Shown: piece by piece, positions 2,427 through 61,429 of the stretch
How the letters are laid out: each line of letters starts with the position of its first letter
How positions within the stretch are numbered: position 1 is the first letter of the stretch
DNA from: Ectocarpus siliculosus
Lineage: Eukaryota; Sar; Phaeophyceae; Ectocarpales; Ectocarpaceae
Length of the DNA: 64,000 nt
Reading direction: 5' to 3'
NCBI GenBank assembly: GCA_000310025.1
Contig: FN649751.1
Location: forward strand, 5,830,817 to 5,894,816
Notes under the pieces: generated by a model
The model's input: the letters and a program-made list of their open reading frames with translations, nothing else
Told to the model about the DNA's origin: nothing
Database searches by the model: none
Position numbers and translations under genes: made by a program

Positions 2427-3340
2427 TCAAATGTATGGGTCAATATTAGTTGACTGGCGAGTGACGGTGTTCACCCAGTACTTGTTGCCCCGGGAGTCGT
2501 AGAGTTCTTCCCTCCTACGAGTGGGCACAGTCGCCTCTGCATGGCTGGGACCCAGTGCAAGAGGAGGGAGGATGGGCGTGGCGGCGACGCCTTGAGCACG
2601 GAACGGCGGGGTGTAGCCGAGCTGCGGAGGACTCATGCCGTACTGCTGGGCTCGCATCGGAGCTTGCATTGGGCTTACGTGAGGGCTCCCCCCCACCATC
2701 TGGTACGAACGCTGTCCGGTAGCGTAGTTCACCCTGGGCGCAAGAGTATGCAGAAAAATGACGACAACGAATGACGGTAGCGGTACTATTGGAAATAGAG
2801 CGTCGGGCAGAAGACATGGGGGCGATGCCGACTATTTCCAGGGCTGTCTGGTACACTATTTGCGATGTCTGTTCCATCCCTCGGTTGAGTATGTTCTCCA
2901 TTGAGAAGGCAAGATGCTACAGGCTCCGGCCAACAGAACGATCCCGAGCGGCTCGAAGCACCTTCTCAGGATCGTTGCGAACAACATGGTACGCACAGCA
3001 ATAAGATGCGACAACCTCCGACGAAGAACTGTGTTCTGCTTTGAATTTTGGATCCATGCGTACAGCACACGTACGTGTTGGTCTATCTTATCTCGCCAAC
3101 AGACCCAGAGAGCGCATGATAACCCGTTCGTGTGAAAGTGCTCCATAATTGCTGCAACGCGTCCATGTTTTAGTTTGATTTCTGCCAATATCATTTCAAA
3201 TCCGCTAGCGATCCTCACAACCCCGGCGGGAAGTGAAGGCAAACTGAACAAGTAAATAAAGCAATCCCTGTATTTTGCTCTCACCAGTAGCATCCGTTCT
3301 CGTCGTAGTAGGGCCCCAAGAAGCCGTTGTTCAGAGACAT
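2427..3340 (-). CDS. WW-like small protein, paralogue A (2 exons)
   Basis: Exon 1 is 3340-3285 (18 codons plus TG) and exon 2 is 2733-2427, with a canonical gtgaga donor and cag acceptor. The product is about 120 residues. The intron splits the Trp codon TG|G. Across the junction the reading is YYDENGCYW-VNYATGQRSYQ, which fits the second and third strands of a WW domain (G-x-x-C/Y-W-x-N-x-x-T-G). The first WW tryptophan is not evident here. A linker rich in Met, Pro and Gln follows (residues about 35-85). The C-terminus carries a second WW-like stretch, ELYDSRGNKYWVN followed by TRQS and a terminal Pro, lacking both signature Trp residues. WW domains usually bind proline-rich ligands; that function is only inferred here. 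Exon 1 was chosen because it matches the length, splice phase and residues of the other three copies in this window. Confidence 0.65.
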
Positions 3341-3840
3341 GTTTCTGCGCGAGGCGGCGGTTAGTTTGGGAAATGGACGCAGGAGTGGATGGATTATACT
3401 TGGGTTACTCTTTGCGTGACACCTATCTATCTATATGCGCAAACGTGACGTCGCCCAGAGAGGAAGATTCTCGCCAATCGGTCAGTAGTATAGACCCTGT
3501 TTTTCGACAAAACGGTTGTGTGTGCAGCGCTACATAATTTTAATTGACTACACAGCGATCGATCCGCAGCGCTGTGAGTCTTCTCTGAAGTTTTCGTGTG
3601 CGACAACCGCGTGGAGAGGGTCGGTCACATATATATAATGCGACGCCACCTGGGATGTCAACGACATCAAGTCTACCAGCAGCGTAATAGCAAGTCACTT
3701 ACTAGAGATCAACTTGGGGGGAATCAGCTGCGCGAACAGCACATAAAACCCAAACGGTGCATTGTGTACAACCTACGGCATAAATTTATTGCTGTTTGCA
3801 CATCATACCGTAAGCGGCGGAGAGTTGGCACCATCCCCTA

Positions 3841-4165
3841 TGAAAGGTAAACTACGCGGGGTGCAGCAAGCACGTTCTGGACGTTACTTGGGGCACTGGG
3901 TAGTCGGCCGTGTTAGGCCGAGAGAGAGAGATTGAGAGAGAGTTGGAGAGAGAGTGGGAGAAGGAAACTTGATTGGAGAGAGACGGTGGTGGTGGTGGAG
4001 AGAGAGAGGAAGAAGTGAGCGCAGCACGCACGCAAGCTTCATCGCACCAACCACGCCAAAAGGGTCCCCGTGACCGCACCGATGGTACCCTGCAACACAC
4101 GAAATTCCCAACACGTATCCCCCTGGGATCCTCACGACCAGATACTGCTGCGAGTATATCTAACA
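3841..4165 (-). repeat. 3' LTR of the copia element
   Basis: 325 bp, reading TGAAAGG...TAACA on the plus strand (TG...CA ends), with the same length as the repeat at 9047-9371 and no difference that I could find. It contains a GA-rich block near 3920-4010. It is the downstream LTR because the element is transcribed from the minus strand. Confidence 0.95.
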
Positions 4166-4435
4166 TCCCCCCTGCTCGCAACAGTTATTCACTGAAAACT
4201 TCGCGAACACTCGATATCTCAACCAAAATACATCTCTCCAAGAATATATGCCATCAATACTCGACCAGAATAACATAAGAGGGAAAAACAATTCAAAGGG
4301 AAAAACATTTCAAAGGAACATGAATACTGCATCGCGCGTAACAAATACTTGGCGCGAGAAATGAAAGAAAACGGGAAACAAAACGAGAAACAAAACAAAA
4401 CCAAAACACAACCAATCAGAAAAACAATAAAATGT

Positions 4436-5860
4436 TCATGCCAAATTCATTGCAAAATCACGGTGAGACTCGAAAGCGTCCTTCGGCAAGCTCTTCGTGA
4501 GAAAATCTGCACGCTGGTACGGAGACGGCACGTGGATCACCGAAATTTCCTTCCTCTCTACCAGTTCCCTGAGAAAATGGTGCCTTACATCTATGTGCTT
4601 CGAGTTCGAGTTTGAGATGGGGTTCTGCGCTAGTTGAATCGCCCCCTGGTTGTCCTCGAAGACGGGGATACACGGCATGCCGACCTGCGGCAACATGAAA
4701 CGCCAAATCTGCCTCAAAAACAAAATCTCCTTCACCATGTCACCAAGCGCGACGTACTCTGCTTCTGTCGTCGAAAGCGTGACGCACTTTTGCGTTCTGG
4801 AAAACCAAGACACAGCGCCTCCTCCACACGTCACGATTCCCCCTGATACCGACCTACGGTCTGCTGCCTTGCTTGCAAAGTCCGCATCAGCGTACCCCTG
4901 CAAGCTGAATCCTTCTACTGTACCCCTCTGAAACGAAATACCAAAGTGACTCGTCCTCCTCGCATAGCCTAAAATATCCATCGCTGCATTCCAGTGTACC
5001 AGCTTCGGAGATGCGCAATACCTAGCTACTGCCCTTACAGCATTCGCAATGTCTGGCCTAGTTTGAGTCGCCAGCCACATCAACGATCCTACCAGCTCAC
5101 GAAACGGAAAGTCTGTCGCCACCTCATCCGCATCAAAATCAGAAAGCTTCACCCCCGAAGACATCGGAACGCTCTTACCTCCCACTACTCCATATTCTGC
5201 TGCTAGCTCGTCCGCGAAAGTCTGCTGAGAAATCGTCAACCTTCCGGTCTCCTTGTTCCTCTCGTAAAAGCACCCAGAATACCATCTCAACTCTCCCAGG
5301 TTCTTCACTGGCACGGACTTGTTAAGATCGGCGCCAAACTTATCACATCTCTCCCTCTCTCCCACAGCAAAAATATCATCTACATGTACTACCAAAATCA
5401 AAACAACACATCCATCCTCAATCAAACGAAACACACAAGCATCGGCCATGCACTGCTCAAAACCTAACGCCACTAAACACCTCTTCAGCATTGCATGCCA
5501 CTGCCTAGATGCCTGTCTCAACCCATACAGACTCTTGCCTAGTTTTACAATCATTCCAGATAGAGCTCCACATCCCTGTGGCAAACGCATGTACACGTCC
5601 TCCTCCAACTCCGAGCGCACAAAAGCTTGCTCAATATCGAAATGACACAAGTCGAGATTTAACTCGCACGCCAACGCAGCCAACATCCTAACACACGAAA
5701 CAGAAACGGTAGGCGCGTACAGCTTTCCAAAGTCAATGTACTCTCTCTGCATATCACCTCTCGCTACAAGTCTCGACTTCACCTTAGTGGGCCATCCAAA
5801 TTCATCTGCCTTCCAATCGAATACCCACTTAGCGTTAATTGCGTTCTCCACTAGTTGCTA
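4436..5860 (-). pseudogene. pol: copia pol: reverse transcriptase and RNase H part
   Basis: A 471-codon open stretch (5851-4436) encodes the copia RT and RNase H. Visible landmarks are KWVFDWKADEFG and RLVARG near the start, FDIEQAF, SLYGLRQASRQW, the catalytic box LVVHVDD, GSLMWLATQTRPDI, then RNase H motifs STTEAEYVAL, FEDNQGAI and SKHIDVRHHFLRE, ending in a stop at 4436. In the same frame upstream, coding continues as EFYGLLEAGTFTPAK, but a TAG at 5860-5858 interrupts it. This frame also differs from that of the integrase part. The catalytic domain itself reads as intact. Without readthrough and a frame correction the polyprotein cannot be made, so I call it a pseudogene, while allowing for assembly errors. 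Confidence 0.9.
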
Positions 5861-8310
5861 CTTCGCCGGAGTAAAAGTCCCTGCTTCCAACAAGCCGTAA
5901 AACTCCCTTTGCATAGAGTCGCTCCAAAGGTGCCGGTGCTCCGACGCCATGGCCTCTTTGTAGCTCTTGGGGACACGAAGGTCGCTGGCCTGGCAGTGAG
6001 GAAGGTCAGGGCGTTGCTCCGGCGGGCGCTGGTCTCGCAGCGTGGCGTCGATGTCTTCCCGGTTGGCGAGGAGCGTGGCAAATGCGAGTGGAAAGCCCGC
6101 TCCTCCAGCCCCCGGGTCCACCGCTGCGAGTGCTCCCGCCTGTTCTCCGGCCCCCGCTCCCCCCGGCTCTCCGGCCTCCGCCCCCCCCAGCTCCCTGCGC
6201 TCCTCATCCACCGCGCTCCGAGCCTCCAGCATCGAACACCAGAGTGTTCTTGTCTAGCATCGAGATGAGTCCTGTGCTGTGCCTCGTGCCCGATCTCGTT
6301 CGGCTTGGCAGCCGCGGGTCTATCATACCCTCGGCCTTTGTACCCGGGCGAAGCTGCCGCATGGCGTGAGCCGTAAGCGGGGGCATCGCGGGGTCCGGCG
6401 GCGGCGGCTGGTCTGGATCGAGGGTCGCCAACGGTGACGGCGAAGAGGCAGAAGACGGCTGGCCAGGGGCGGGGGTCGCCGACGGTGGCGGCGAAGTGGC
6501 AGAGGGCGGCTGTGAAGGCGTGGGAGCGGACGGCGAGCGTGGTCGCTGGCGGCGGCGTTGCGGCAGGTGGCGTTGCGGCAGTCGAAGGCGTCGGTGCTGG
6601 GCCAAAGTTGATCGAGACGACCGGCGGCGTGAACGGGGGGGGTGTCGGTGCAGCGGTGATACCAGCGGAACCCCCCTCGCCGGCTGGCGCCGACGTCACC
6701 CACGACACGTTGTTGGTGTAGACGACGCGACCGGTGGACGCCTTGAGGACCTTGACGGTGCCGCTCGGGTGGTTGTCGCCGCCGTTCAGGTAGAAGCAGA
6801 GGGTGGCCTGGTCGTCGAGCTTGGTGCGGCGATCCTCGCGCATGAAGCCGGGCTGGAAGAACGGCAGCACGCGGAACGGCCCTTGCTCGCCGGTGAACAT
6901 CTCGTGCGGCGAGCGCCGCCCGGGGTTGGCCTTGGTCGCCGACTGGTTAAGAGCGTCGGCGGCCCACTTCGCCGATTCCATCCAAAGACGGTCACCGCGC
7001 TCGTCGAGGCCGGGGATGGAGGCGAAGTCGACGTTGAACACACGGCCAGCGCTGCGGCGGGCGGCCATGCCGGCCTTCATAATCCGCCAGATGGCGCTCT
7101 CGACGACGCCGTTGTACTTCGGAGTGCCAGGCGGGGTGAACTCGACGCCGATGCCGTTGTCGTCGCGGAAACACTCGATGCGCCCGAGGTCGTACCGCCC
7201 CACGTCCGCCAGCAGCCTTTTCGTTGCCGCCAGCGCGTCGGACTTCCGCCGGAGACCGTAGACCTTGTTCCACCGCGAGGCGCTGTCGACGGCGACGAAC
7301 AGGTAGAGGTTGCCGCCCAGGGAAGGCACCAGCGGTCCACACAAGTCCAGGTGAACACGCCCGAGTGGCTTGGACGCCCGCGCTCCCGGCCCCCGCGGCA
7401 CCGACCCTCGCCTGCCCTTCGCCTTCATGCAGTCCGTGCACGGTTCCAGCTTGCCGGTGAGCACGATGCCTCTCTGCTGGGCGGTTTCTCTCAAAAGGGG
7501 CTCGCAAGCGTGGGCAAGGGAGCGGTGGAAGCGGTTGATGTCAACGGACTTTTCAGTCGAACCAAGAGCAAACGGGGACGCACCAGGGCCAAGCACGGCC
7601 GCACCGAAGTCAAAATCAGCACCCCCATCAATGCTATCCAAAACAGCAGCTACATTCGCAGCATCAGTCTCAGGGATAAACGCGGGGAAAAACTCTTGAT
7701 ACGGGGTGTCATCATAGCCATCCATGAGCTGCTCGTCGGTGAGCACACTCGTGTCTCCAAGATCCATACCCGGAAAAGTACCCACACAAACAAACTCGGA
7801 CGCCGAAGAAGGTACTACGCCGGCAGAGCCGGCGGGCGGGACGCTCTCACTCGCAGGTACTACACTGGTGGGACCAGTGGGCGTGACGCTATCAGTCGAA
7901 GGTACTACGCTGGTGGGACCAGCGGGCGTGACACTCTCACTCGAAGGTACTACGCTAGCAGAGCCAGCGGGAGGGAAACGCAACACGGACACCAACGATT
8001 CCGCGGAGCCCCCTTTTTGGGAAGGGGAACGCGTGGAGCCAACGGCGGGGGCGGAATCGGGGGCAGTCACGAATGCAGGCAAAGCAGAAGAGTCTACTAT
8101 AGTTGCAGATGGGTCGTATGGTAAGCGCATGGCATATGCTGCAGACGCTTTTTCCTCCCTAGCAAATAGCAGTCCATTTTGGAGGGTTGCACCACGCTCG
8201 TCGTGCAGGATTTGTTGCTTTCGAGAAACTGCATGCGTTGAAAACAAATTGAAGCTCAGGTTCTCTACTACAGACACGTCAGTCAGCTTAACACACATCG
8301 TCGTTTTTTT
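5861..8310 (-). pseudogene. pol: copia pol: pre-integrase and integrase part
   Basis: The minus-strand frame reads a post-protease segment (near 8295-8150, with VENLSFNLFS), a Pro/Ser/Gly repeat region with several PTSVVPS-type units (about 7800-8000), the GAG-pre-integrase zinc site HH-CC (RFHRSLAH and CTDCMKAKGRR, about 7420-7545), and the integrase core. Visible core residues are LDLCGPL with its Asp, FRDDNG with the second Asp, and NGVVES with the Glu. The second Asp and the Glu are only about 20 residues apart where copia integrases have about 35, so part of the core is missing. After NNVSWVTSAPAG the frame changes at least twice (about 6560-6610 and 6210-6235) through a Pro/Ala-rich linker before the RT part. 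Several adjacent shadow frames on the plus strand are long only because of high GC. Confidence 0.85.
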
Positions 8311-8335
8311 ACCGTTCTCATCCTGGGCAGTGGGG

Positions 8336-8793
8336 GGGCATCCTGGGGTCAAGACGGCGGTCAGGCAGCAGCTGGCGGCCAAAATCGTGACGGACAGAAG
8401 AAAAATAATGACGTGTTCAACGACGACCCCGGCGGATTTTGCCGCTACCACCAGTCCGAGCTTCACACCAACGAGCAGTGTCGTCTCCAGCAGCAACTGC
8501 GGCGTGCGCGTTCGAGAGAGGGCGCCGAGGAACGTCGCTCGGGCGGCGGCAGCCGCGGTGGCGGCGGTAGCCAGCGAGGGGGTAGACCGCCGCCGGGACC
8601 CGGCCGCGGTGGCGGGCGATGGGTGAGGATAGAGCAGCAGCACCACACCGGTCATGGTGGCGGTGGCTGGAGCCAAGCCTCACCCCCCCGCGACCTCTTC
8701 GTGGACGTGGGCCTTGTGGTGGTCTGGGGCGTCACCCGGGGGGTCGTGGGCCCGCGGGACGCCACAGCAGCGACGGGCGTGCCGAGAGAGATC
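8336..8793 (+). pseudogene. gag: Gag zinc-knuckle segment in reversed orientation
   Basis: Read on the plus strand, opposite to pol, this encodes an Asn/Gln/Gly-rich stretch, then FCRYHQSELHTNEQC (8449-8491), which has the Cys/His spacing of a retroelement Gag knuckle, then an Arg/Gly-rich tail (RRSGGGSRGGGG...). The minus strand over the same bases has no domain-like sequence. The segment occupies the place where the end of gag and the protease should lie on the minus strand, and it abuts the 100-N gap. Either part of gag was inverted in the element or the contig was misjoined. Confidence 0.6.
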
Positions 8794-8893
8794 NNNNNNN
8801 NNNNNNNNNNNNNNNNNNNNNNNNNNNNNNNNNNNNNNNNNNNNNNNNNNNNNNNNNNNNNNNNNNNNNNNNNNNNNNNNNNNNNNNNNNNNN
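8794..8893. other. Assembly gap (100 N)
   Basis: A run of exactly 100 N inside the gag region of the retrotransposon. The true distance is unknown, so the orientation and spacing of the two sides are not secure. Confidence 0.99.
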
Positions 8894-8951
8894 CCTCCAC
8901 TTTTTGTTGTAGCTCTTCCCCGCTGAGGGCGGAGAGGTCGATGTCTTCCAT
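8894..8951 (-). CDS. gag: Putative gag N-terminus (truncated by gap)
   Basis: An ATG at 8951 opens MEDIDLSALSGEELQQKVE and runs into the scaffold gap at 8893. Its position just inside the 5' LTR and its acidic, helical start fit a copia Gag N-terminus. Nothing more can be read because of the gap. Confidence 0.4.
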
Positions 8952-9046
8952 GGTGTTTGGTGTTGTGGGAGTCTACCGATTGCGCGTGACTGCACAACCC
9001 CCGGATGGCTACGCCCGCGCGCAGATACCGTGATATCGCACTAGTG

Positions 9047-9371
9047 TGAAAGGTAAACTACGCGGGGTGCAGCAAGCACGTTCTGGACGTTACTTGGGGC
9101 ACTGGGTAGTCGGCCGTGTTAGGCCGAGAGAGAGAGATTGAGAGAGAGTTGGAGAGAGAGTGGGAGAAGGAAACTTGATTGGAGAGAGACGGTGGTGGTG
9201 GTGGAGAGAGAGAGGAAGAAGTGAGCGCAGCACGCACGCAAGCTTCATCGCACCAACCACGCCAAAAGGGTCCCCGTGACCGCACCGATGGTACCCTGCA
9301 ACACACGAAATTCCCAACACGTATCCCCCTGGGATCCTCACGACCAGATACTGCTGCGAGTATATCTAACA
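9047..9371 (-). repeat. 5' LTR of the copia element
   Basis: 325-bp copy of the repeat at 3841-4165. It would hold the element promoter. About 95 bp of leader separate it from the putative gag start at 8951. I could not identify a convincing tRNA primer-binding site next to it. Confidence 0.95.
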
Positions 9372-9376
9372 CCCTA

Positions 9377-12300
9377 TGATCAAGAGGGTGAGGAAAGAGC
9401 CCGATATGTCTACGGAAAGTCCTTGACGAGATGTTTTCAAAACCATCATCAATGGTGTGTCGACATGAGCAAGCTTGGTCGTGGAGCAATCGAGCTTTGA
9501 ACATATCGGTCTACATGGGCGGGGTGCCATCTCTCCGCCTCTTACGCTACACTATACACCCACCCATTACCTGCGAGGTTGTCTGTTGATCGTGGATTTT
9601 GTCTGGGCGCTGCCGACTGAGATCGCTGGCCCGTGGATTGAAGGGTGCGTGAGATGTTTGCGGGGGGTAAAGTGGTGTGTGCATGCGGAGTGCGAGCATC
9701 CAGCCTGCCGGTTTCGACAGTTGTCACCGAGACGACGAGTGTTCCCCGGAATGGCTCTTCCCCGGAATGGCTCTTCCCCGGAATGGCTCTCGTCGTCGTT
9801 CGCCGCAACGCCGCAACTGAAGCAGTGCCACACGAGAAAAAGCGAAGCGGCCGAGAAGTATCCGTGGACTCCACAAGAACTTTGACACTTTGACCCGTTC
9901 TTCAGCCCGGAGCAGCGACGGGAGCGGAGACCTGCCGGAGATCCCATCCACACCTGCTCTCTACATGCGGCGGTCTGCCGACGACGCCTTCTCCAGAAAA
10001 TTCTCACGCGCTCTTATGTACGCGGGGAAGCGCTTGCTTGTCGGCGGCGGGACTGACTGTCAGGTTGGTTACCCCGCATTTCCCCGTTCCGAACAGGATC
10101 ATTGCTGCACTTACTGCCTGCTGCGGTCTCAACTGCATAATGTGCCGTATGATCCCTCTCAATCTTCCAGCATTACAGCATTAGAGATGGAACCCCCATC
10201 CAGTTTGAAGAGCAGCAGGATACCAGATAATTTTCGCGCCGTTCTTGTGTCCCCCTCACCAGCTCTATTCTTCAACCTGCAATAACGCACAGATCGTTCC
10301 CTCCGTTCCTCGTCATACTACCTCACCTCACGGTCTACACATAAACTTCCACCCGTCTCGTCACTTCCAAACCCTGTGCAAGGACTTGTCGCCCTTCACC
10401 CCCCACATCTCGAATCTCTCTTATCGCCCAACGGTACAACCGCAAACCTCTCCCACACGACAACACCCTCACAGCCAGTCAAACGGGCAGGGGTCAGCGA
10501 ACATGGGAACCGTCTCGTCTAGGTGAGCGGAATATATATATCCTGTTGTATCCACGCGTTGCTGGAGACGAAGATCCAGTGTGATTGTCATACGAACAAA
10601 GCAACTTCCTGGCGACAATAAGCAAACCCTTACCCTCATCGAGGCTACTTCTATTGTACGCACAACAACAGCCGTTCGATCCATGGGAATCATCAGCTGA
10701 CTGAGTGGAATTCGACAACAAGCATGCATGCGGAGAGTGCTGCGCATGCATGCGTGCTTCGCACCGTTTCAGCTGAGCAATCCGCAACAAGACTCAACGA
10801 GATACCTTTCTCCGACAGCAATATCCTCCGGCGCGATAAGTCATTGATCATTCCCCGACACCAGCCAGTTGTGTGGAACCTCACATACGTGTCGATGCGA
10901 AACGTTATCGTCGATCGTCGGATAAAACGTCCCGTCAAGTTGCTAGAGCGTCGTCACCGAACGCCCTCCCCTGTTCATTTGTCTCTCTTCCAGGTGGTGG
11001 GCACACACACCATACGATACCGAAACAAGAGAGCAGGCGTAGGAAGAGTTCAGATAGATATAGTTCGGCGCCTTCCGCTGTTCTCATTCGTACAGAAGAT
11101 ACTCGCCCTATCATGCCGTAGACTTCTGTTGTTGCCGACAGATATATCGACCGCACCATCGACGAGGTGCGAGGTGTACACGCCGATGAACTGGAGATCC
11201 TTCCTCTGGAAAAACTGACTCCATTTTGCTCGCGAAAGTTTCGAAGCGCTATGCTTCCTTTCTAGGCGCCAACTTCAACATGGCGCTACGAAGCACGTCA
11301 ATTGTCTACGACGGTCAGATCCTTTAGTCTGCGTATGGAGTGCATGCCCACTCACAGGAGATGTTGTATAGATATACATCATCCGTGCGCCCATACGAGC
11401 GCGCCCTCCCGCCTGATCCCGCGCAATATCGCGCGCAATGACAGACAAACCCGCTCCACGACCCACGGAAAATTATTTTCTCTTCGCGGTTCAACCAAAA
11501 TGTGGCGCACGCTACACGCGGTGAAAGCCTCACTGCTGCACCGCGCACCACCACACGGTTGGGCACATCGACATGACCCCAAGGGGGTGTTGAAGAGGAC
11601 GCCAGCCGGGTTCTACATGTAGTCTGTATATCCAAGACAGTTGGAGACACAGAAATAGGAGTGTGGCAGTCGGTTCAAAAAGTTGTTATGGTCCATGCTA
11701 CGTCGGTGTAGCGGACATGATGGAGCAACGACCTGCTGCGCGTTGCCCGCCCAGATCTAGTACAACTGCTGTGGTCGCGCGGTCGAAGACTGCAGCTATG
11801 GACCGAAAAATCGGGTCGTCCAAGGCAGTGAGTGGTGGGAACTACAATCCTGCTGTTGTACACCCACAGTTCAGCAGGATTGATTGTGAATGTCATGGAC
11901 GACCCAGATCTGCGGACTTTTCCGACCGCAGCTAGCGGCAGCCCTCGACAGCAAGGCTCCACCATGCCCTCGGATTCAACATCGATGCAATATCAACACT
12001 GTTGAACGTTAAACAAGCTGTTCAACCACCCACCTGTCTGTGTCCCCTGTTTCGTCTCGATTTGAGGGAAGGTGTGTAGAGGTAGACTAGGCAGTATGCT
12101 GAAGGAGGCTATTCTCAGCCGCTGCTCTGTGCGACACCAGTGTTTTTTCTTCCGCAATAATAGGTACTTCCCAACTCTTACGCACCTCGTGTGTGTGAGA
12201 TCTCTGGATGCGGTTCCAGTCGTTTTCCGAATCAGTCAAAATCATCACCCCTTCAGAGACCTCGCTTTCTTTGAAAAAATACACATTAGATGACGGAAAT

Positions 12301-12579
12301 ATTATCTGTTGGAAGAGATACGCTCCGATCGAAGCGAGTTGTTTGAATGCGTTACAGTGAGTGTTGAGAAAGACCTACTGAGTCTTTTCAACGTGCGTAT
12401 TTAGAAGGGTTCGTTTCGTGTTTAGCTTGGGCAACTCCTTTGGGCGGCTGGTCCCTGCCGAGCAGCCAGGTGGTGATTTTTTCTACGTATTTGCGCGAGT
12501 ACTCGCTATTTTTGTTTTTTCATGGCGCTTTCCTCCCTCACGGTCCGCGTCGTGCCGTCCATTCCTCAGATCTCCGGCA
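9377..12579. other. Intergenic, no supported gene
   Basis: Between the retrotransposon and the second WW-like gene I see only short overlapping frames on both strands without domain signatures or consistent splice sites. The one structured item is the minisatellite at 9742-9789. Confidence 0.5.
9742..9789. repeat. 16-bp minisatellite, three units
   Basis: Three head-to-tail copies of TTCCCCGGAATGGCTC, flanked by short inverted sequences (ACGACGAG on the left, CTCGTCGT on the right), so the block could also form a stem. Confidence 0.85.
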
Positions 12580-13802
12580 ATGGTTTACAAGGACGGCAAT
12601 ATCTGGAACAGCACTTTTGACGAAGCTGGGAACAGCTGCTGGTGAGTCTCTTCTACATACCGATATCTATCCTTCACATTTGCCGGACCAAACGCTTCGG
12701 GCGCGACACAGCGTCACATGAGCCTAGGTGCGCGTGTGTGTGTTTTTTTGCTTATTTTGTTCAATGCCCCCACGTCCCACCCTTTTCCCCGCTGATGCTT
12801 GCCTTTGGTTTCGTATCCCGACATTTTTTATTGTCGTTTGGTGTATACTCACGATATATTCGCTTTCCACTGCAGAATTGCCAAGTGTTAACTCCCGAGA
12901 GAGATTCGAACCCACAACCTGCTACTAAAAGTGATTTGAGGTCATCCACTATGTAGAACACAGCGCTCCGACTACTTAGTCCTACCGGAGTCGCGGCTGA
13001 TGAACGTACAGACCAGGTGCCTTCTACCTAGATTTCCAGCTAACTTTGACGTATCGAGCTTCCATGTTTGTCGATCAAGTCAACAGCTACTTAATCCCGG
13101 GCAGGTCATTACTCCTGCATCACGTATATCTGCCGCCGTCGTCCCCGCCATAGGATCCCTGATAGCTACCACAGGCTACCAACACACGAGCGTTCTCGGA
13201 ACTGACGCGTCGACGCCCTTATCAAGAACGTCATCAAGAAGAACGCCGCTGACTTTCCTCCCGCCCTTAACGTTCAATGCCTTGTGCTCGACCCTCGACC
13301 CAGGGTGAACAGCACCACCGGCGAGAGAGCCTACTACTTCATCGGCGGCAAGGCCGTGAGGGGCCCGTCAAGCGCCGCCAGTTCGCCCCACACCATGCAG
13401 AGTCCCGGGCGCGTCTCGCGGCGCCCCTCAGATACCAGATCGCCCTACGCCATGCACAGCCCTGGGCACGCCGCGCCCTGGACCGCAGGAGCCCCCGCGA
13501 TGCACAGCCCGGGAGGCTATGTTGCTCCCCCCATGCATCACAGTCCTTCCCCGACGGGCTTCGCTGCGCACGCAGTGCACAGCCCTGCGGCTGCGGGTTT
13601 TGCTGGCCCCGCGATGAACCACCCTGCGCCTGGCCAAGCCTCTGCGACCATGGTCCCCTACTACCACCAGCCGGGCTACGGGGGAGTTGTTCCCGCCGGC
13701 GACCCGACTCCTACTGCCGCTGGCGAAGCAGTCGGGTATCGCTCGAGCAAGCACTACGTCAGGCCTCGCTCAAAGGCGTCGTGGATGTGGACCCAGCCGT
13801 AG
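12580..13802 (+). CDS. WW-like small protein, paralogue B (2 exons)
   Basis: Exon 1 is 12580-12641 (20 codons plus TG, donor gtgagt) and exon 2 is 13304-13802 (acceptor cag); the product is about 186 residues. The joined N-terminus reads DGNIWNSTFDEAGNSCW then VNSTTGERAYYF. This follows the WW pattern W-x4-F/D-E-x-G-x-x-C-W-x-N-x-x-T-G-x-x-x-Y, with the last WW tryptophan replaced by an aromatic. The middle has several short units ending in HSPG/HSP, rich in Pro, Met, Ala and Gly. The C-terminus, YRSSKHYVRP...SWMWTQP, resembles the last two strands of a WW domain with the terminal Trp kept but the first strand lost. There is no signal peptide or membrane segment. Its only relatives in the window are the three other paralogues. 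Cellular role unknown; a proline-ligand adaptor is a guess from the domain type. Confidence 0.7.
12883..12975 (-). other. tRNA-like relic inside the intron of paralogue B
   Basis: On the minus strand a T-arm-like GTGGGTTCGAATCTCTC (12896-12912) is preceded by an A-box-like TAGTCGGAGCG and a possible anticodon stem. The acceptor stem does not close and the anticodon loop is too short, so this is not a functional tRNA by eye. It could be a tRNA-derived SINE fragment. Confidence 0.25.
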
Positions 13803-16800: not shown

Positions 16801-19192
16801 TCTCTCAATCTTACCATAGATCGCGGATTTTTCACATCAACTTTTAAACCAAAACGAAAACAACCTCAAGTCGGTCATATAAAAAAAAAAACGCGAAGAT
16901 GAAATATGCCATGAAAAACCTGATACTGGCCAGAATCCGAACCCGGTACAGCAGTTGGCGCTGCTTACTTGCTTGTTAAATCATGTCATACTCAACCCTC
17001 AACCCCCCCCACCCCCCCCAGGATTTTTTGCGTGTACAACGTACCACCCGAACGTCACAAACAAGTGCCCAAATCCAATCCAACGGAGGTCAACCATAGA
17101 GAGAGAGAGAAAACCAACGAACTCTAGTCACAAAACTCTGGTGGATGCATTTCTAACACTCCTTCGTGCAGCGTTTTTTTTGTGAGGAAAGGATGTTCTG
17201 CGGACGGTACATTAGGATGAGATGCTGCTCTACGTCGCAGCAACAATTTGAGTAGCTTTTGCACTGCGTTCGTTCACTCATTGTAGGAACTTTGTCTGCG
17301 TTTGTGTGTACAACAGCAGCAGCAACAGCCGTACACACACACCCGCTGTCGAATTACTCTCACTTCTTCTTGTCGACTGTGGGTATATCTCGAATGGGGA
17401 CAATAGTCGCTCTGTGTCATGTGTGTAATTATTATTCCTTAATTCTTGTCGAAGCAAGTCATATCCGGAGAGAGAGAGAGGCTCTGATGTGCAGGAAAAA
17501 TTGGGTGGGAAATGCATCATCCAGTGTGCGTCTACCAACGCTGTGCGAATGGCTTTGGCGTGAGTGTATTCGCTTTGAACGCTTTCAGGTATCTGCGTTT
17601 GACACGGATGTGCACGTTACGAAAAGTAGCACAGGTGTGTGTGTACTCCCAACAAAAAAAATTACTTCGATTGAGAGAGGGAGATATGCGGCGTAACCTC
17701 TGTTTGTTTTTTACCAGAGAAACCAGCATACCAGCATGCAGGTGTGTTTCAGATTACCTCTCGCTAAAAGGATGGGTAGATGATTGTGTTGTATGGTGTT
17801 CTGCCGCGCTCGAGGAGAAGCAGGTGGAGAACTGTCACGGTACACGCTTTTCCCCGCGCGGGCAGGCTCCGAAGGATCTTGTAAAACGAGGAAAAAAACT
17901 GTCGGCCTGAAACCGTCGTTGCTCAACGGCTCTCTCGCTCCCTGCCCGGGGTATCTCCTCGCCCACCATCCCCCCCTCGCACCCCTCACACCTCACATCC
18001 CACCGACGACCTCCAACCTTCACCTCTGGTCTTTCTCTCTCTCTATCCGACGCTGGCAAGAACCCCCCACGCGTCTTGCATCTAACTTCGCCAAACCATC
18101 AACAAGAAGAGTCCAAGGCGCTCCAGACAGAGTCTATATCTTTGCTGCGAGTCGGAGACACGAACCACACCGCCCATCCGACATCCGACACACACGGCGC
18201 CGCTCGAACCTCAGAGCAGCAACCAACCAAGCAGAGTACCGCAAGCATGGGCCTCACCATCAGCAGCAGGTAAGAGGTAGATCTAGAACTTGGAACGATG
18301 AACCCGCCTCTGGTTGTTTGACTCTGATGCAGGGGGGCTCGGACAACAGCGCAGAGCAGTTTTCTCTCTGGCAGCGTTTTTTTTTTTGGCAACTGGCAAC
18401 TTCAACAAGATTATCGTGTGTTCGTTGTTGTCCAATTCTGTCCGGAGAGGAGGGGGACAACCCCCCGATCTGTCCTCGGACAATTGCAGCCCATTCGAGC
18501 TTGTGCGCGCACTCCACACATCGTATCAGAATGACGGATCGTGACTTGCGCGACTCGTGCCTTCCCTTTTTATTTCTCGCCCGATGTGGAAACTGGCTCT
18601 CTCCTTGTTGTATGGATGCATGATGCGTCACTTGCTCGAAATCCAAACTAGGCACGCCCCCAACAACCGTTAGGCGCTCGGGCCGATGCGCCCCCCCCCC
18701 CCCATGAGAAAAACACCTCTGTGCCCGCAACACACAGCGTGTTGTATGGTAGAGGCGCTAGCCCGTACAGCCGCTTTGGTGACTGCCTTTCGAACGGATA
18801 GACGCACACATAGATCCGTACATCGATCGACCGACACGCACACACCCACCCGCGGTACGGAGAGACGTAAAGTTCTTTGCGGAACCCTGGGATGACCGGT
18901 ACCCGAACTTGTCGTTGATGCACTCACACCGATCCTCCGCAGATGTACGCTGCACAAACGCTGAGATGTACCGGTAGCACCCGCGCCTCCGTCGCACCCA
19001 TATCGCCACCCGACCGTAGTAGAAAGGATCGGCCCCCGGTCTCTCTCGCGCGGTGGCACCTGCCACACGGTACCTATACAACGTATGCATAGATTCACAC
19101 GCGATCCAAATTTTAATTTTTACTTCTGTCATTTTGCCCCCGAACGTTTCCTCGTCTTCTGCTCTTTTCCGCGTCTAAACAGGAGTCCGGCC
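13803..19192. other. Intergenic, no supported gene
   Basis: Apart from short, mutually overlapping frames nothing here looks coding. A mini-exon-like ATGGGCCTCACCATCAGCAG followed by gtaaga near 18247 was considered and left out. A (G)8 run near 15211 and a (C)n run near 18690 are simple-sequence tracts. Confidence 0.45.
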
Positions 19193-20314
19193 ATGGCATA
19201 CTCAGAAGGAGGGATCTGGTGCAGCACATTCGACGAGATGGGACGACGCTGCTGGTAAGAGGGCGACGTATCCTTTCGCCTGTTTTTTTCTGTTTTCTTT
19301 CGCTGTGCGCGGTCTCTGTCCGTAATGACTTTGGCCACTCTTTGGTAGGATCATGGCCAACTTTCCGCAAAGGTCCGACCAGCAGCACCGTTTGCCCCTT
19401 CTGGCTTTATGGGCGTTACTGCTTGTAGAAAACCTGCAGAAAGATGGACACACGCGTACGTTGAGCGCTCTTTCGAGATAAAAATAAGATTGACATTGCT
19501 GGCGTTGCCCCGCTCTGTGTAGGAGTGCGTGAGAAACTTGAAGAAAAATAATTTCATGTATATTTGCTCGCCACGTCACATCCTCGGTACTTGGGAGGAT
19601 CTGTGTTTGTTTATGGACTACATGTAGTGCACCCCCGCTGATCGTGCGAAAATCGAGCCGGGATTCCATGAAGACAACGCCTATCGCAACCGAGGGGGGT
19701 CTGTGCACCTACTATCCCCTCAGAACCTGCGAGGACTTGAGATATGCAGACGTTGAATGAAGTTCTGACGGCCGCGTTGAAGTTGGTCGTGTGTACTGTA
19801 TAGCTGGATGTACAGGGCGGATAGTTGATACTTGTACTCGCGGTTGCGTTATTTCCCCCCGACCCCGCGAACTCCCCCCCCCCCCCCCCTCCTCCTCCTC
19901 CTCACCAACAAGTTAAACCACCATACCCTTCCCCGACTCCCGCGTCGTGGGCTTGCTATTATTCTTGTCCGACACGATGCAACCAGGGTTAACAACGTGA
20001 CGGGACAGAGGACCTACCAGTTTATCCGAGGGAGGCCCGTGACTCCCACTCAGCCGGCGGTGGCGTCACCGTACGTCGTCCAGCAGAGTCCAATGCCGGG
20101 GCCGCACACCGCGCCCTGGGGTCTGCCGTCGCCGGGCTACCCTGCGCCTCCGCCGCCCGCTGTCGCCATGGTCCCTTGCCAGGCGGGTTATGGCGACGGT
20201 GCCCCCCCCGTCGCTCCCGCGGGGAATGGGGGACTGGGCCAGCGCCTGCAGAAGTATTACCTGAGGCCTTCTTCGGAACGTTCGTGGATGTGGAACCGCA
20301 ATCAGGGCCAATGA
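19193..20314 (+). CDS. WW-like small protein, paralogue C (2 exons)
   Basis: Exon 1 is 19193-19254 (20 codons plus TG, donor gtaaga) and exon 2 is 19987-20314 (acceptor cag); the product is about 129 residues. The junction again rebuilds a Trp codon: GGIWCSTFDEMGRRCW then VNNVTGQRTYQF. The pattern W...FDE.G..CW.N..TG.R.Y is shared with paralogue B nearly residue for residue. The linker is Pro/Gly/Ala-rich (about residues 35-100). The C-terminus, QKYYLRP...RSWMWNRNQGQ, matches that of paralogue B (KHYVRP...SWMW), so B and C form the closest pair and share orientation, about 6.6 kb apart. The intron is 732 nt. Function unknown beyond the WW-like fold inference. Confidence 0.7.
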
Positions 20315-20720
20315 TCGATGGACATCACCGCCCGTACGCGCAGATGTGGGACCAGTCACAGAGCCCGCGATCAACGTTGTACGGGGGGCATCGTACACGG
20401 GATGTTGCCCGTTCCTTCTACCCTCATCTAGGAGGTTTACTCCGGCTTGGGGGCGGGGATGGAATGTATGTACAGCAGTAGATGACACAGGGGCGCGAAC
20501 AGACGGACTCTCCGGAAAAGCTCGGGACGGTAGCATTTAATTGTAAATAGTTTTTTGTCACGTGGAATATCTACCGTAAGGCTGGGTGAACCACGTGCGA
20601 TGTTTTATCTCATGAGAGGATTCGGTGAAGCACTAATTTTGAAGTTGGCTCGTGTTGTTGTGGTGTAGCTCGACGTACTGGTTTGCGTTGGCCCTGTGGG
20701 GGGGGGGGGGAGGGGGGGGG

Positions 20721-20820
20721 NNNNNNNNNNNNNNNNNNNNNNNNNNNNNNNNNNNNNNNNNNNNNNNNNNNNNNNNNNNNNNNNNNNNNNNNNNNNNNNN
20801 NNNNNNNNNNNNNNNNNNNN
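20721..20820. other. Assembly gap (100 N) in a poly-G tract
   Basis: 100 N flanked by G-rich runs on both sides (20698-20720 and 20821-20832). The gap probably arose because the homopolymer could not be sequenced through. Confidence 0.98.
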
Positions 20821-22574
20821 TGGAGGGGGGGGGGTCTTGGGTTTTTGCGCGTACGAGGGATCGGCGGCAGTGCTTTGGCCACAACAAATCTGTACATATT
20901 GTGTAGTTTGCGTAACTGGTGCTCGTGCGCAAATGCGATGGTGCCTTTAGGTCCAAGGCCGGTGGCATGACTTCTACGGCCTGTCAAGCCGCTCTCCGCT
21001 CTGGTCGCCAGGTTGGCATGCTGTTGCTAGTAACCAGATTGATCTGTACATACTTAGACGAGGGCGGTTTGTTTTGAGGGTGGGCGTTTTGTCTGCTAGC
21101 TCTCGCAACTCTCTTGTACTCTCTCCAGCGATGAGGATTTTGCATGCTCGGGGTATCCCGCCTCTCAGGAAGTGCTAACTTTCGCCATATAGGGATCCCT
21201 GTTTTAGGGATGTTCACAAGAGCCGGGGCGGGGAAAAAGGGGGGACAGGGGTAGTGGCGGGGAGGCTCATTTTGTGTGTGCGTGCTTGTAGGAAATGCTG
21301 TACATGACAAATGAGTCGGGTGTGTACTTAATGGATCACCGCCGCGAGGGGGACAACAGTTGGAGGAGCATGTTTAGGCCTTGCTCGTCTTGTGAGTGGG
21401 TTCTGCGACGTGGATCGAGTAAATATGGGTTGGTTGACGTTCAGTCACAAGCTCTGCTGTGCTTTGAACCCCCCAGAGAAACGAGACAGAGAGGAACATA
21501 TTATTCCGCTCCGGGACAAGTTGTTCCTTGGGGAGTGTAGGCTTCATGTCGGTATGGCCGGGCTCGGCTGTTTGTTACTTTCGTCCACCGCGTCTTGTAG
21601 CGCGATCGAGACGAAGACGTATGATGTAAATGCTGCTGTCGGAGCCAGGCTTATGTAGGTAAACCGCAAATGCCTGGGCGCGCATGAAAGGGTGTGTGTA
21701 TGGGGGGAGGCAGTACAAGTCACCCTTTGTTTTCGGTTCCAGCTGTTGTTGTGGAATCGCTCTGACAGAATTGAACCGCCCTCTTGGTGGGAGTAATTAC
21801 GGTGAGAATTAGGGGCTGGTTTTCAGCGTAGAGCAGCTCGGCTGTTGTCACTAAGACAGAGCTTAGCTGATGGGTCGGCGTGATGTACAAATTATAGACT
21901 CGCGGGTTGTGGTTCATAGATTTAAGTACTACTGGAGTTGAATCGTGCAAGTCCAAGTGGCGGCGTTGCGAAACCTAGCGTTGCCTACGGTTCTCGCGTG
22001 CTGCAGCTGCGTTGCTTGGCTCGGCGCCGATCCACTAGCGGTAGATTAGATGTAAATATTCATAGCGGTATAAGGTAAGGGCAATGGACACTTCTCCCTC
22101 CCCCCTGGTGAACAAAGAAATGTCGCGTTCGTTTGGTAGGCGGCCTGGTTTATGTACGCACGACTCGTGCGGTGGAAGTAACCGTAAAGTGTTGGCACCA
22201 CCCGTTTTTTTTGTACGCTCTCGGCGATGCGATGGAACAAACGCTTAAGGTCACCGGTTTTCCGTCGTACCGGCGAAGACGCGGTGCCAGCGTTGTTGAA
22301 GGAAAGCCCGCGAGAACATTTTGCCTCGTGGTGAAGACCATTCGTCATGCCCAAGTGGCTCGTAGTTTCGTACGAAGAGGTTGGCAACGTGCGGAGGAAT
22401 ATTTGGACATCAAAAGGGATCCCCGAGAGCGCCGGTGGTACGTAGATATAAATACCTTGTTGGTGGTGGGTTCGGAGTGTGTGTGTGTGATGAGGTGGTC
22501 GTTAACCTTCGACCACCCCACCAAACGCCATATGTTTTTGGATGGATTTTGGACTGATTGGGGCGTGACGCGTT

Positions 22575-22576
<2 letters not shown>

Positions 22577-22617
<41 letters not shown>
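22577..22617. repeat. (GA)n microsatellite
   Basis: About 20 perfect GA units. It produces an Arg-Glu alternation in one frame that should not be taken as protein. Confidence 0.97.
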
Positions 22618-22619
<2 letters not shown>

Positions 22620-22932
22620 TGATATTCAGCGAATACAGTAATTCAACGAGAACCACCCTAAGCATGAGTGCAGCAGCAGAGCTGCTGTAGCTGCTGCTGC
22701 TGTTGACGTATGGCGGTACCCAGCACAGTGCCCACCACCCGATACAGAATCGTTGGGGCGACACCGCCCCGCATCGGTTCCTTCTCCGTGGGAGCACCGC
22801 CTACCTAGCTAGCTAGGAGAAGCAGCCTGCTTCTTGCCACCGTGGCACGTGCGCAGCAACTCGTTTTTTGCTTTTGCTTGCCTCGATCAGCTGTTTGTTA
22901 TTTCGTGTGCGACGGCCGATCTCGTAGGAAGA

Positions 22933-23017
22933 ATAAATACGAACACAGAAAGACTACCCGTTCGAGATACAGTATACCCATAATCGAACGGGATGTGTTG
23001 GAGTCTTTCAGTGAGTG
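22933..23017. mobile_element. Short MITE-like element, copy 1
   Basis: An 85-bp unit whose ends match the ends of the 305-bp unit at 27608-27912: a left part with CAGAAAGACTACCC and a right part with TCGAACGGGATG and GGAGTCTTTCAGTGAGTG. AAAGACT and AGTCTTT form inverted ends, with an inner CGTTCGA/TCGAACG pair. It looks like an internally deleted copy. There is no coding capacity. Confidence 0.55.
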
Positions 23018-25489
23018 ATCTATGTTGTTGTTGTTGTTGAGGGTGAAGGAACTATTCGTACTGAAGCCGTGGTAAAACATCTTGAATTTGTGCGTCCATA
23101 TTTAATTCCACATTATTGGCCCGAAGGCGCTTCCTTTCCGTTACACCCACGACAGGGAGGGCAGGGGTAAAAGCCTCAAAAACTCAACAAGTCTTCCTGC
23201 TTGCGAAAAAAGTGCTATTCAATCGAATGCACTCAAACCATGCTGTCGTCGAGATACACTACATGGCCAAATCCCAACGACGACTCAAACTCATCACGAA
23301 CATTGACACAGTTTTCTTTACTGACCCGTCAAAGTGTGCAATGGCCGTTGGTTTTCGGGCCGTTGGTTTTCGGGCGGCCAGGCCCACTCCCTACTCCCCA
23401 CCGCCCCGCTCAGCCTCATCCCGGTTCTCACCTCTAGAAACTCTTGAAACAAATATCAAAGAAAAAATGAGAAAAATCTTCGTTGGAAGAGTAGAGCAAA
23501 CCCGCCCGTCTTACCTAAACAACACGTGCAAAGAGGCGATCTAGTCACACCCACTCCTGCTGTCTGTCCTTTCGCAGAATATTCCTGTATCCCACCTTGT
23601 TCTCCCCGGTGTTTTTGTTGCGGGCACCATTTCTCTACGAATCCGCACCCAGGTCAGTGCACATATGTACCGTCTTACCGTCGTCAGGCAAGGAGGCTAA
23701 TAACTCAACCGCGGACTATTCCTGGCATGGTGTAAAGACCCCACAGGAGAGGAGCGCCACCTACCCTCAATTGCCAAATATATGTACCGTCCACTCTTCC
23801 TCCCTCACAAAAATTCCACCCTATTCAGGGGACGAGAATCATCTTAAGCCCGCCCGTCAGTATCGTGTTCGTTCTACGATGATGATAGTAGTACACTGCC
23901 TACCACGAGGACGCTGGGTGGGGGGGGAGACTCGCCGGCACTACTTTACTTATAGTTTTCATTCGTACACCCATTGACGGACCCACTTGTTGGTAGCGGA
24001 CCAGAAGACATCGCCGTACACCACAGAATATAGGGCCGAAGGCCCGACTGACTACTACATTTTAACGTTTTTACTACAGTAGTACAGCAGTGGTGTTACC
24101 AAGACACGATACTGCAAGCCCTTGAAAAAAAGGTTGCATTTAAAAACTGCTCAAAAGCACGTACAGTAGTACAAACACGCCCACTCCAGCCCCCGCTACC
24201 CTAACACGTACACCACATAATCGTTGCGTCGAAGCCATAAACAACCCCGACGTGGTATCTACTACGTGGAAAAGTGCGACATCTCAAGGATGCGTGCGCC
24301 CGATCGCAGCACACGAGTGACAACAATTATTTATCACGACTCCACAGTGCACCGTACATTTAGTGGGTTGATTTGTGGTCCTAAATTCTTCCCCGCAAGT
24401 ACCTGCAGCAGGAGCAAAACAGATAAACTGCACGCCGAGAACGCGGGGCTTTAACGCACTCAGAAGTCAGACAACCTCTTCTTGATTGCTTCTGGTACGC
24501 GACGTTATTTTAGAGCATCGAGCCTCTCTCACCCGGAAAATATCTACTTGGTACAATTCTGTACACAGAAAACATGTCAAAACAGCAACAACTTTGGAAC
24601 CCCCGTGCAAGCAACTCCCCTTCAAACAAGAGCGGTGCGTTCTCTCTCTAGCGAGTGACCTCTTGGGGCATATTCTTCATGCCCCCGACCGAAACCACAA
24701 AACTGGTACTCGGTTTAGCCGCAAGCTTCTCCAAAATGCCATGGCTGAAAATTTAAACAAATGCAACATGTGCGATAATCAAAGCTCGTGCGCGACGGTA
24801 AAACTGTTTGCCCTCATTTCAATCGCAATGAAGATATGTTTTTATCTACCAAAATTTTACATCCAGGGGTGAACACAAGTCAATTTTTCTGAGGGTGTGT
24901 GGCATGCCTCAGGCAACATCTATCCACAGGCAGTGTGATCACTACCGTTACCTCACTCGCAAGCCGACAGCCAGAAACCGACTAAAATCGCGAGCTAAAA
25001 CTTAACGCGAGGCACGAATAGTCATGCTACAAACGACACGGAACACAAAAGAATTAGGAACGGTCAAACGCGAGCTCGATGGTACCACGACACAGAAAAC
25101 GTTTGCAAAATACTTCATCAGCTCAATACGCCAGTACTGCAATGTCTCCACCCGCCTGATTGAACCGTTCTCACACGATGCGATCGGGTCCCGACCCAGA
25201 GTAGCAGGGCGGCGAGTTGGCGACGGCAAGCTGACTACCTGGGTTTCATTAACCGCTGATTAGGAACATCAAAAACTACTAAATAGCTGAAGGAGGCAAC
25301 GCCTAGTGTCCAGCGATATTTCACAGACAATGTCGAACAAACACTTGGGTCGTACGCCCATTGGTCGAGGAGACCCGTCTGCGAGTACAATCATGCCTCT
25401 AAACGTGCCCAATATGGAGCTTTGTCACGGTTTAACTTACTCCGAATGGTGATAATCACTTCACTGTGGACATACATGTGTACTTCGAT

Positions 25490-26360
25490 TCATGGCAGCC
25501 AACCTCTCGTCACGATGTACTTAGGCTTCTTCTTCTCCTTCTTCTCGGTGTCGGCGGGCGGGGCGGGCTTTTTCTCCTTTTTCTTCTTGTCGAAGTCTTT
25601 GGGCTTCTCCCGCGTGGTCTCGTTCTTGAAGGGGTTGTCGTAGTACTTCTTCCCGTTGTCGTCGGTGTACTCAGACCACTTGTCCTCCTTGCACTTGTCG
25701 CCGACAATCGCGACCGTCCCCGTGGACTGGCCGAACACCGGCATCCACGCCACTCCTCCTGCAGGCACGATGCTGCCCACTCCTCCCACAGGAGGCACGC
25801 CCTGCCCCGCAGGTGCGTTGCCCATCCCCGCAGGTACCGTTCCCATGGTGCATGGTACCGGGCAGTTCATCCCGCCGTGCGGCCACAATGGAAGGCCGTT
25901 CCCATCTTGAAGTTGGTACGTAACCCGCCCGGTGATCTTGTCCGCCCTACACAACAATACGCGGACGGGCAGGGATAAGGGGGAGTGGATGCGACAAGGT
26001 TTGGAGCACTCCAGGTGTGGTGACCCACATGCTTTTCGACCAGTACAGCCGACGCTGTACTTGATGAAACCACACCCAGACAGCTGAATTTTTGAAGTTG
26101 ACAAGCAAATACAGTGTCTAAAGGGGATTTCATGCAGTTGCGCATGTCCAGGTCTATTCTCAAAATTTGTGGCATCCAGCTCTTCCGCTCGCCCTTCAAC
26201 CTTCAAGGACATCGTCAGTAACGCCACACTCAACGCCGTTGCGGCGGATGGGTGCATGAGCTGGGGGGAGATAGAGGGAAGAGCGCGCGTGTCCTTACCA
26301 GCAAGGCCGGCCATACTGGTCCCTGGTCAACTCCCAAAACGTCGCGTCGAAGTAGGTCAT
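25490..26360 (-). CDS. WW-like protein, paralogue D with a good C-terminal WW domain
   Basis: Exon 1 is 26360-26299 (20 codons plus TG, donor gtaagg) and exon 2 is 25946-25490 (acceptor tag); the product is about 172 residues. The joined N-terminus reads DATFWELTRDQYGRPCW then ADKITGRVTYQL, again with the Trp codon split by the intron. The linker has repeated PxGxxxxPAG-like units. The C-terminal part, WSEYTDDNGKKYYDNPFKN, is the best WW domain of the family: Trp, acidic pair, Gly, double Tyr, Asn and a closing Pro; only the second Trp is missing. A basic tail follows (runs of Lys with PAPP). A second in-frame ATG sits directly upstream (26363), and an out-of-frame ATG lies a little further up; I prefer 26360 because it gives the same exon length as B and C. 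Confidence 0.7.
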
Positions 26361-27520
26361 CATATCTCTGGTCTGCCATCCAGGCGGTAGAAAGGACAGT
26401 GAACAGCGCCAAAACAGAGAACACTCAGCGAGAGGTGATCGGTGTTTGGTCGGGGGAAAGAGCTCCGAATTATGGCTCTCGTCCGCGCACCATGTAGCCT
26501 TGCAAATGGCCACAGGGGTTTTTCTCTATGATGAGCGGTTAGATCGCGCCGACAAGAACGAATTGTATCCGGCACGGCTTTTGATCAGTTTCACCCTTTA
26601 TTGAAATGGATTATATTAGCGGAGCGAAGAGGAAGGGGAAAGAAGAGACAATAACCCACCTGAACACGATGCAACGTAAGGGAGTCGGCATGACAAGCGT
26701 CGAAATTTCGGGACATATAAAACACAATCAAGTCAAACACACCCTTAATCGTGTTGACGGCAAATGTAACGAACCTGGTCACCAAACAAAGCATCACACA
26801 GGACTCACTTCTCACCTCCTCTTTGTAGCTTCGTCGTTCTCAAGGGCAGTCTACGGCCCCTGGTACCTTGATCTGTTCTCTTTTTCTGATCAAGGCGGCA
26901 GCGAGACCGGATGCGAGCTTCGGCGTGCGTCCGGCGTGCGTCCGGTGATTGATGCGTTCGGGCTTCGGAAGTAATATACAGCTGTGTTCGTTCGTGGAGA
27001 CGACACGAGATTTTCCAATTGTAAACTTACTATCAGGGGTGCTGATGTTCGTGTTCCTTGGAGCGGCTCGCAGCAGTGTGACACGTCGACGGGGCGAAAG
27101 TGGAATGAGATGCAGCGTGCGCTGCAAGCTAGAGCAGGTAGTTCTTCGGACCGATGCCGATGATCGTCGCTTTTTCCCGGTCGTCGGACACGAGTGGTGG
27201 TCTGCAAATCGAACCGTTTTTTTCTGCTGGACTTTCACGAGAACTGCAAGCTGTGCGCAATTGCAGCAACAACCGATGATTGTGGGCGGAGTGAACTCGA
27301 GCAAGTACATGTTGTACTGGTTGGCTATAGGCTGAAGATATCTCTCCAGTAGCTATTACGGGCCAAGTGCCACCGGAAAAGAGCAATCAGGGCGCTCCCC
27401 CCATGACGCACACTTCCTCTCTGTGCTTCTCCTCTCTTTCAAGTTTCAAGATCGGCGGTGGCGACCCTTCCGCATCAGCACATAGATCGACGTTTTTCTC
27501 GCACTCCTTTCTGCACAATG

Positions 27521-61374: not shown

Positions 61375-61429
<55 letters not shown>

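Follow-up and report, generated by a model that had tools for sequence, protein, structure and literature searches.

WW domains rank with the smallest folds that bind other proteins and contribute to the control of growth in fungi and animals. The groove tyrosine (Tyr) of these domains normally packs on proline (Pro), and in FBP21 and Prp40 two of them stand close together. By a published definition, the domain carries two tryptophans (Trp) 20 to 23 residues apart, forms a triple-stranded sheet and binds Pro- or phospho-Ser/Thr-containing ligands (PMC10762896). Here we describe four small genes, A to D, in a 64,000-nucleotide stretch of the genome of Ectocarpus siliculosus (contig FN649751.1, positions 5,830,817 to 5,894,816; hereafter, the window), the N-terminal pattern of which is most likely a diverged WW-type domain split by a phase-2 intron in the Trp codon of strand 2. 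Brown algae are an independent complex multicellular lineage, and little on their WW domains turned up in the open-access literature searched.

An analysis of the letters alone (the original prediction) had placed four two-exon genes of common layout here, two per strand. Rebuilt from sequence with GT-AG introns, all four models stand and follow one common design:

3340-3285/2733-2427, minus strand: gene A, 120 amino acids (aa)
3285-3340, minus: gene A exon 1, first half of the putative N-terminal WW-type module, MSLNNGFLGPYYDENGCYW^, with Leu at the leading Trp position
2734-3284, minus: gene A intron, 551 nucleotides (nt), from GTGAGA to CCCAG, splitting the Trp codon in phase 2
2427-2733, minus: gene A exon 2, second half of the putative N-terminal module, Pro-rich linker, C-terminal WW-type module, stop
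2430-2525, minus: C-terminal WW-type module of gene A, with DPYI at its end (DPYY in relatives on contig C20)
12580-12641/13304-13802, plus strand: gene B, 186 aa
12580-12641, plus: gene B exon 1, first half of the putative N-terminal module, Cys at the groove Tyr position
12642-13303, plus: gene B intron, 662 nt, phase 2
13304-13802, plus: gene B exon 2, second half of the putative N-terminal module, linker bearing repeats of HSPG type, no supported WW in the tail
19193-19254/19987-20314, plus strand: gene C, 129 aa
19193-19254, plus: gene C exon 1, first half of the putative N-terminal module, Cys at the groove Tyr position
19255-19986, plus: gene C intron, 732 nt, phase 2
19987-20314, plus: gene C exon 2, second half of the putative N-terminal module, Pro-rich linker, tail KYYLRPSSERSWMW resembling that of B, without a supported WW
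26363-26299/25946-25490, minus strand: gene D, 173 aa, alternative start at 26360
26299-26363, minus: gene D exon 1, first half of the putative N-terminal module, ATG at 26363 or 26360
25947-26298, minus: gene D intron, 352 nt, phase 2
25490-25946, minus: gene D exon 2, second half of the putative N-terminal module, Gly/Pro linker, C-terminal WW, Lys-rich tail
25589-25693, minus: gene D C-terminal WW domain, with a Pfam WW match and a predicted three-stranded sheet

In each gene exon 1 ends in TG, the intron runs from GTGAG or GTAAG to AG and exon 2 starts with G, the Trp codon being split TG/G (phase 2) at the same place in all four. The spliced N-termini read MSLNNGFLGPYYDENGCYW^VNYATGQRSYQ (A), MVYKDGNIWNSTFDEAGNSCW^VNSTTGERAYY (B), MAYSEGGIWCSTFDEMGRRCW^VNNVTGQRTYQ (C) and MMTYFDATFWELTRDQYGRPCW^ADKITGRVTYQ (D); the leading Trp of the predicted joined pattern is thus present in B, C and D and replaced by Leu in A. 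All four ATG codons are preceded, 4 to 10 bases upstream, by CAG (3341-3347, 12567-12579, 19180-19192 and 26364-26370) at an equal frame offset (1 modulo 3). This CAG may be the acceptor of a 5' intron, making an upstream exon of A–D conceivable; because of it, and of a likely extra 5' coding exon in the copies of an array on C20 (see below), the two-exon models are possibly incomplete.

The original prediction had treated the joined N-terminal pattern as a motif separate from WW. Its WW connection was correct and most likely reaches further than claimed, to the N-terminus itself. The N-terminal modules show W-x7-G-x2-[YC]-W-x-N/D/H-x2-T, which is the WW register: counted from the loop Gly, the aromatic pair, the Asn/Asp/His, the Thr and the aromatic residue (or His) at +14 all fall where a WW domain has them. 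In hhalign, a profile of the four window sequences matched nine WW modules at 96.9% with a score of 41.9, the best of 150 column shuffles reaching 18.3; the nine target rows are C-terminal or unsplit WW modules of the same genome, the C-termini of A and D included. A ten-row profile (10 of 15 family members, four near-copies and one gene found later being left out) gave 11 matches at E ≤ 10 against PDB sequences, 8 of those under 0.1, named Itch, Prp40, GAS7, WWP2 or NEDD4-like, all of which we take to be WW-bearing proteins. Finally, a fifth gene about 41 kb before the window, member E (C26:5789030-5789829, minus strand), has the same split, W^INTHTGQATYQ, and a differing C-terminus. Its full spliced protein matches Pfam WW at residues 12-37, spanning the junction at residue 24, with E 4.2e-4; for its exon 2, no convincing relative was found (best E 0.08). 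As the intron cuts through the domain, annotation would miss an N-terminal WW-type module of this kind.

Several results weigh against a WW assignment. For the ten-row profile, the top PDB match (Itch, E 2e-6) sums three domains of about E 2 each, and no single domain scores better than E 0.005. The four window rows alone gave nothing significant against PDB, a WW chain at E 1.4 being tied with an unrelated protein. hmmscan with Pfam WW (E ≤ 10) matches one of the ten N-terminal modules and none in A–D. The second Trp is kept in none of the ten, its position being occupied by Tyr (8, among them all four window genes), Phe (1) or His (1), and the N-terminal modules of A–D accordingly lack two Trp 20-23 residues apart. 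A convergent W-D-G-W-T-G-Y motif belonging to another small fold would account for the Pfam misses, the loss of the second Trp and the silence of the four-row profile. We consider such convergence extremely unlikely, since the profile match lies in the exact WW register and far above shuffles, the Pfam match of member E spans the junction, and the ten-row profile retrieved only presumed WW-bearing proteins as its 11 PDB matches. The supposedly new motif at the N-terminus is thus, most likely, a WW-type domain, and the proteins are probably WW-type adaptors, not a new fold.

Compared with the described WW domain (PF00397), the window proteins share the register of the N-terminal modules and the predicted three-stranded sheet of the D C-terminus. 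They differ in the replaced second Trp, in C-termini of A and D that score under the Pfam cut-off, and in the binding groove, the positions of which we assume to follow YAP numbering. Cys replaces the groove Tyr in 5 of the 10 aligned N-terminal modules (B, C, D and both genes on contig C18), as it does in the C20:1747902 gene, and most Cys-type modules have Cys on one side of the groove and Tyr, not Trp, on the other. The core D, G, W and T are invariant across the ten.

The family is larger than the four genes first proposed: the TG/G split is common to at least 15 genes at three places, five on C26, eight on C20 and two on C18. The eight C20 genes (G000:C20:1.736-1.805 Mb) resemble the window genes in having the intron in the same codon, a Pro-rich linker and a C-terminal WW-register module (DPYY), and differ in keeping the groove Tyr in seven of eight and in including young, near-identical copies. 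In seven of them the second half reads QH-x-x-TGEW and the C-terminal module ends in DPYY; the C20:1747902 gene has W^QHRQTGQVTY and a linker with SPVP repeats, its DPYY-ending module lying in a later exon to which it was assigned by position only. Pfam matches to the C20 C-termini are weak (L014, E 0.016) or missing (L016), a further point against the WW assignment. Of the two C18 genes, one is followed by an exon with two more WW modules, likewise attributed to it by position; for the other, none was seen within 1.5 kb. Gene A finds C20 genes as its best non-self matches (E 0.030), and a C20 query finds gene A as its best match beyond C20 (E 0.019); the two results are weak.

Five of the C20 genes form an array (G000:C20:1777314-1805011) of near-identical copies, mostly in steps of about 3.9 kb, with conserved exons and indels in the introns; judging from these sequences, it is a young array within the same family. 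Its copies differ from the window genes in a likely further 5' coding exon, in Lys/Glu-rich stretches and in linkers with PPVY and PPLP. As to the supposed expansion of the family, recent near-identical copies are found on C20 and not in the window, the copies of which look old: over the N-terminal module B, C and D are 36%, 44% and 28% identical to A, and C is 58% identical to B.

Genome-wide, Pfam WW is matched 75 times. Clusters on C3, C15, C16, C489, C124 and C22 were not counted as members because their listed WW halves read uninterrupted through the codon that is split in the family; of the three C3 loci, one (L035) gave no row, and two of the halves on C3 appear broken elsewhere. At G000:C15:1687000-1696900, WW domains follow in series in separate open frames over about 9 kb, several followed by Ala/Pro-rich stretches, and would represent either a large multi-WW protein or a gene cluster.

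Pattern searches of the 189-Mb genome indicate that the shared design exceeds chance. The pattern for the exon-2 start was written from A–D, which match by construction; of its seven matches the three others equal the three obtained with the reversed control and give no lead to relatives. The exon-1 donor pattern has 21 matches versus 3 for the control, of which B, C and D match by construction and several others are near-identical C20 copies. Thirteen of the 21 were counted as family members. The eight uncounted matches lie on C3, C13, C23 (two), C33, C138, C455 and C483; seven were screened with a strict exon-2 filter that also missed C20 genes, and C483 fell outside the screen. The C3 match is an exon of WW-like appearance.

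Selection on the split module was assessed by one-sided Fisher tests on rounded counts (uncorrected p). Over the 38-codon N-terminal module of B and C, the proportion of synonymous differences (pS) is 0.73 and that of non-synonymous differences (pN) 0.27 (p 8e-5), a clear synonymous excess. An excess at p < 0.05 is seen in 6 of the 10 pairs among A–E, most clearly B/C and also B/E, and in all three pairs of the C20 genes L013, L014 and L016 (p 0.004-0.008). Less favorable to a coding family are A/C, A/D, B/D and D/E, in which the excess is not significant, and the near-identical C20 copies, which show none (synonymous/non-synonymous 0/1, 2/5 and 1/6), their differences being too few to judge. 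These four pairs fit an alternative in which the window genes, as old duplicates derived from tandem-WW genes of the C20 type, no longer bind ligands and are decaying into pseudogenes or barely expressed. The loss of the second Trp in all four window genes and of the groove Tyr in three, the missing leading Trp of A and the missing supported C-terminal WW of B and C all favor it. Yet the frames are open and the splice sites intact in all four, B/C and B/E show a synonymous excess, and the D, G, W, T core is unchanged in the ten aligned members; we regard degeneration as rather unlikely.

The prediction that all four proteins end in a WW-like module held for A and D and failed for B and C. Gene A matches Pfam WW at residues 94-114 (21.3 bits, E 2.8e-4) and gene D at residues 110-137 (22.7 bits, E 1e-4), both significant yet under the curated cut-off of 26.9 bits; at E ≤ 0.001, WW is the sole Pfam family in the two proteins. 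A fold prediction had been suggested as a check and agrees with WW for the one module concerned, the D C-terminus: from a two-row alignment, AlphaFold2 gives a three-stranded sheet (strands 7-10, 16-20 and 25-27) with a predicted local distance difference test (pLDDT) score of 84.5. In a Foldseek search with this model, the top seven rows are FBP28, PRPF40A, Prp40 and FBP11 WW (prob 0.98-1.00), and the best 50 of 238 rows are WW-bearing, mostly by title and counting Pin1 as presumably WW-bearing, none with E below 0.001. The tails of B and C have no Pfam WW match, and a WW-like module there was rejected: the hhalign score of their shared tail (KYYLRPSSERSWMW in C) is 9.2, equalled by 28 of 150 shuffles. 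A and D thus have two WW-type modules each, the N-terminal one by profile and the C-terminal one by Pfam, and B and C lack a second. As in WBP4/FBP21 and PRPF40A/Prp40, two modules lie in one chain, though in A and D they are parted by a linker of dozens of residues. The C-terminal modules, too, have lost the second Trp, replaced by Asn in A and Arg in D, which makes classical proline binding by these ends doubtful.

Another alternative is a nuclear role in RNA processing, in which the modules would hold splicing factors or the polymerase tail, as FBP28/TCERG1 or PRPF40/Prp40 do with their WW domains. WBP4, PRPF40A, Prp40 and FBP28 are among the closest sequence and fold matches of the C-terminal modules, and the Lys-rich tail of D could, from its composition, be nuclear. 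Itch and Nedd4 WW domains are also close, however, a pathway is not predictable from WW matches, and Pfam finds no family besides WW under E 0.001 in A and D. We regard an RNA-processing function as unlikely.

The linkers had been proposed to serve as ligands for the WW-like ends of sibling proteins. By eye they contain repeats, of HSPG type in B and PAGxG type in D. Eight motifs were compared with shuffles in each of the four window linkers (uncorrected p). PPxY, LPxY, PPLP, PPR and RPP are absent from all four, and PxP and PPP are present without enrichment, so that classical WW ligands in the window linkers are unsupported. Ser/Thr-Pro is enriched in A (5 versus a shuffled mean of 1.4, p 0.004) and B (9 versus 3.7, p 0.001), borderline in C (4 occurrences, p 0.052) and lacking in D. 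With the classical motifs missing, the sibling-ligand idea would survive in the window only in a phospho-dependent (group IV WW) form. Elsewhere in the family the C20 array favors the idea: among five relatives' linkers tested, those of L016 and L019 each have one PPVY and one PPLP (reached by 8-9% and 4% of shuffles, respectively), a stretch shared by L017, L018 and L020; both motifs are absent from the linkers of L013 and L014 and from the examined part of that of L049.

Taken together, we consider it reasonably probable that A–D are divergent members of a dispersed split-WW family encoding small soluble adaptors, with tandem WW-type modules in A and D. Their ends would form miniature three-stranded sheets that hold Pro-containing stretches of partner proteins, perhaps phosphorylated on Ser/Thr, and a flexible linker would let one molecule tether two partners. 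Because Cys occupies the groove Tyr position in B, C and D, and a second WW is unrecognizable in B and C, these three have probably changed their ligand set or kept one arm only; some members of the family most likely have altered binding. The adaptor role is proposed by analogy with the WW family.

The Cys groove, the half-domain boundary shared in phase and codon by at least 15 genes and the same-strand neighbors B and C also suggest a far-reaching, very improbable scheme. Here, a Cys-retooled WW subclass would exist in brown algae as exchangeable half-WW exons, with ligand choice set by the spliced halves and by groove redox state, and with some siblings (the C20 array) as ligands. More immediately, with its fixed half-domain intron and Cys-substituted groove the family provides small, clean targets for binding assays and a marker by which its spread can be followed. 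The family had been called apparently undescribed, and no description was found among the listed open-access literature matches, most subscription journals being outside that scope.

Several other features of the window were noted. Between A and B lies a Ty1/copia-type long terminal repeat (LTR) retrotransposon (3841-9371, RVT_2 reverse transcriptase on the minus strand). Its 325-bp TG..CA repeats (3841-4165 and 9047-9371) are identical and it is flanked by a 5-bp target duplication, CCCTA; given the identical repeats and the duplication, the insertion is very recent. Three runs of exactly 100 N, representing gaps or withheld sequence, occur at 8794-8893, 20721-20820 and 53214-53313. A minus-strand frame at 57370-58185 has a 14-residue stretch that we take for an Hsp90 signature and has no Pfam match. 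Plus-strand frames at 58041-62041 match NAD_binding_8 (E 1e-6) and, weakly, amine oxidase and prenylcysteine lyase, with no match for the middle frame, and probably encode an FAD/NAD-binding oxidoreductase. EsV-1-7 domains are abundant in the genome: of 880 candidates, 150 were scored and all 150 match, with none in 14 control genomes. The EsV-1-7 family is a brown-algal marker, in keeping with this genome.

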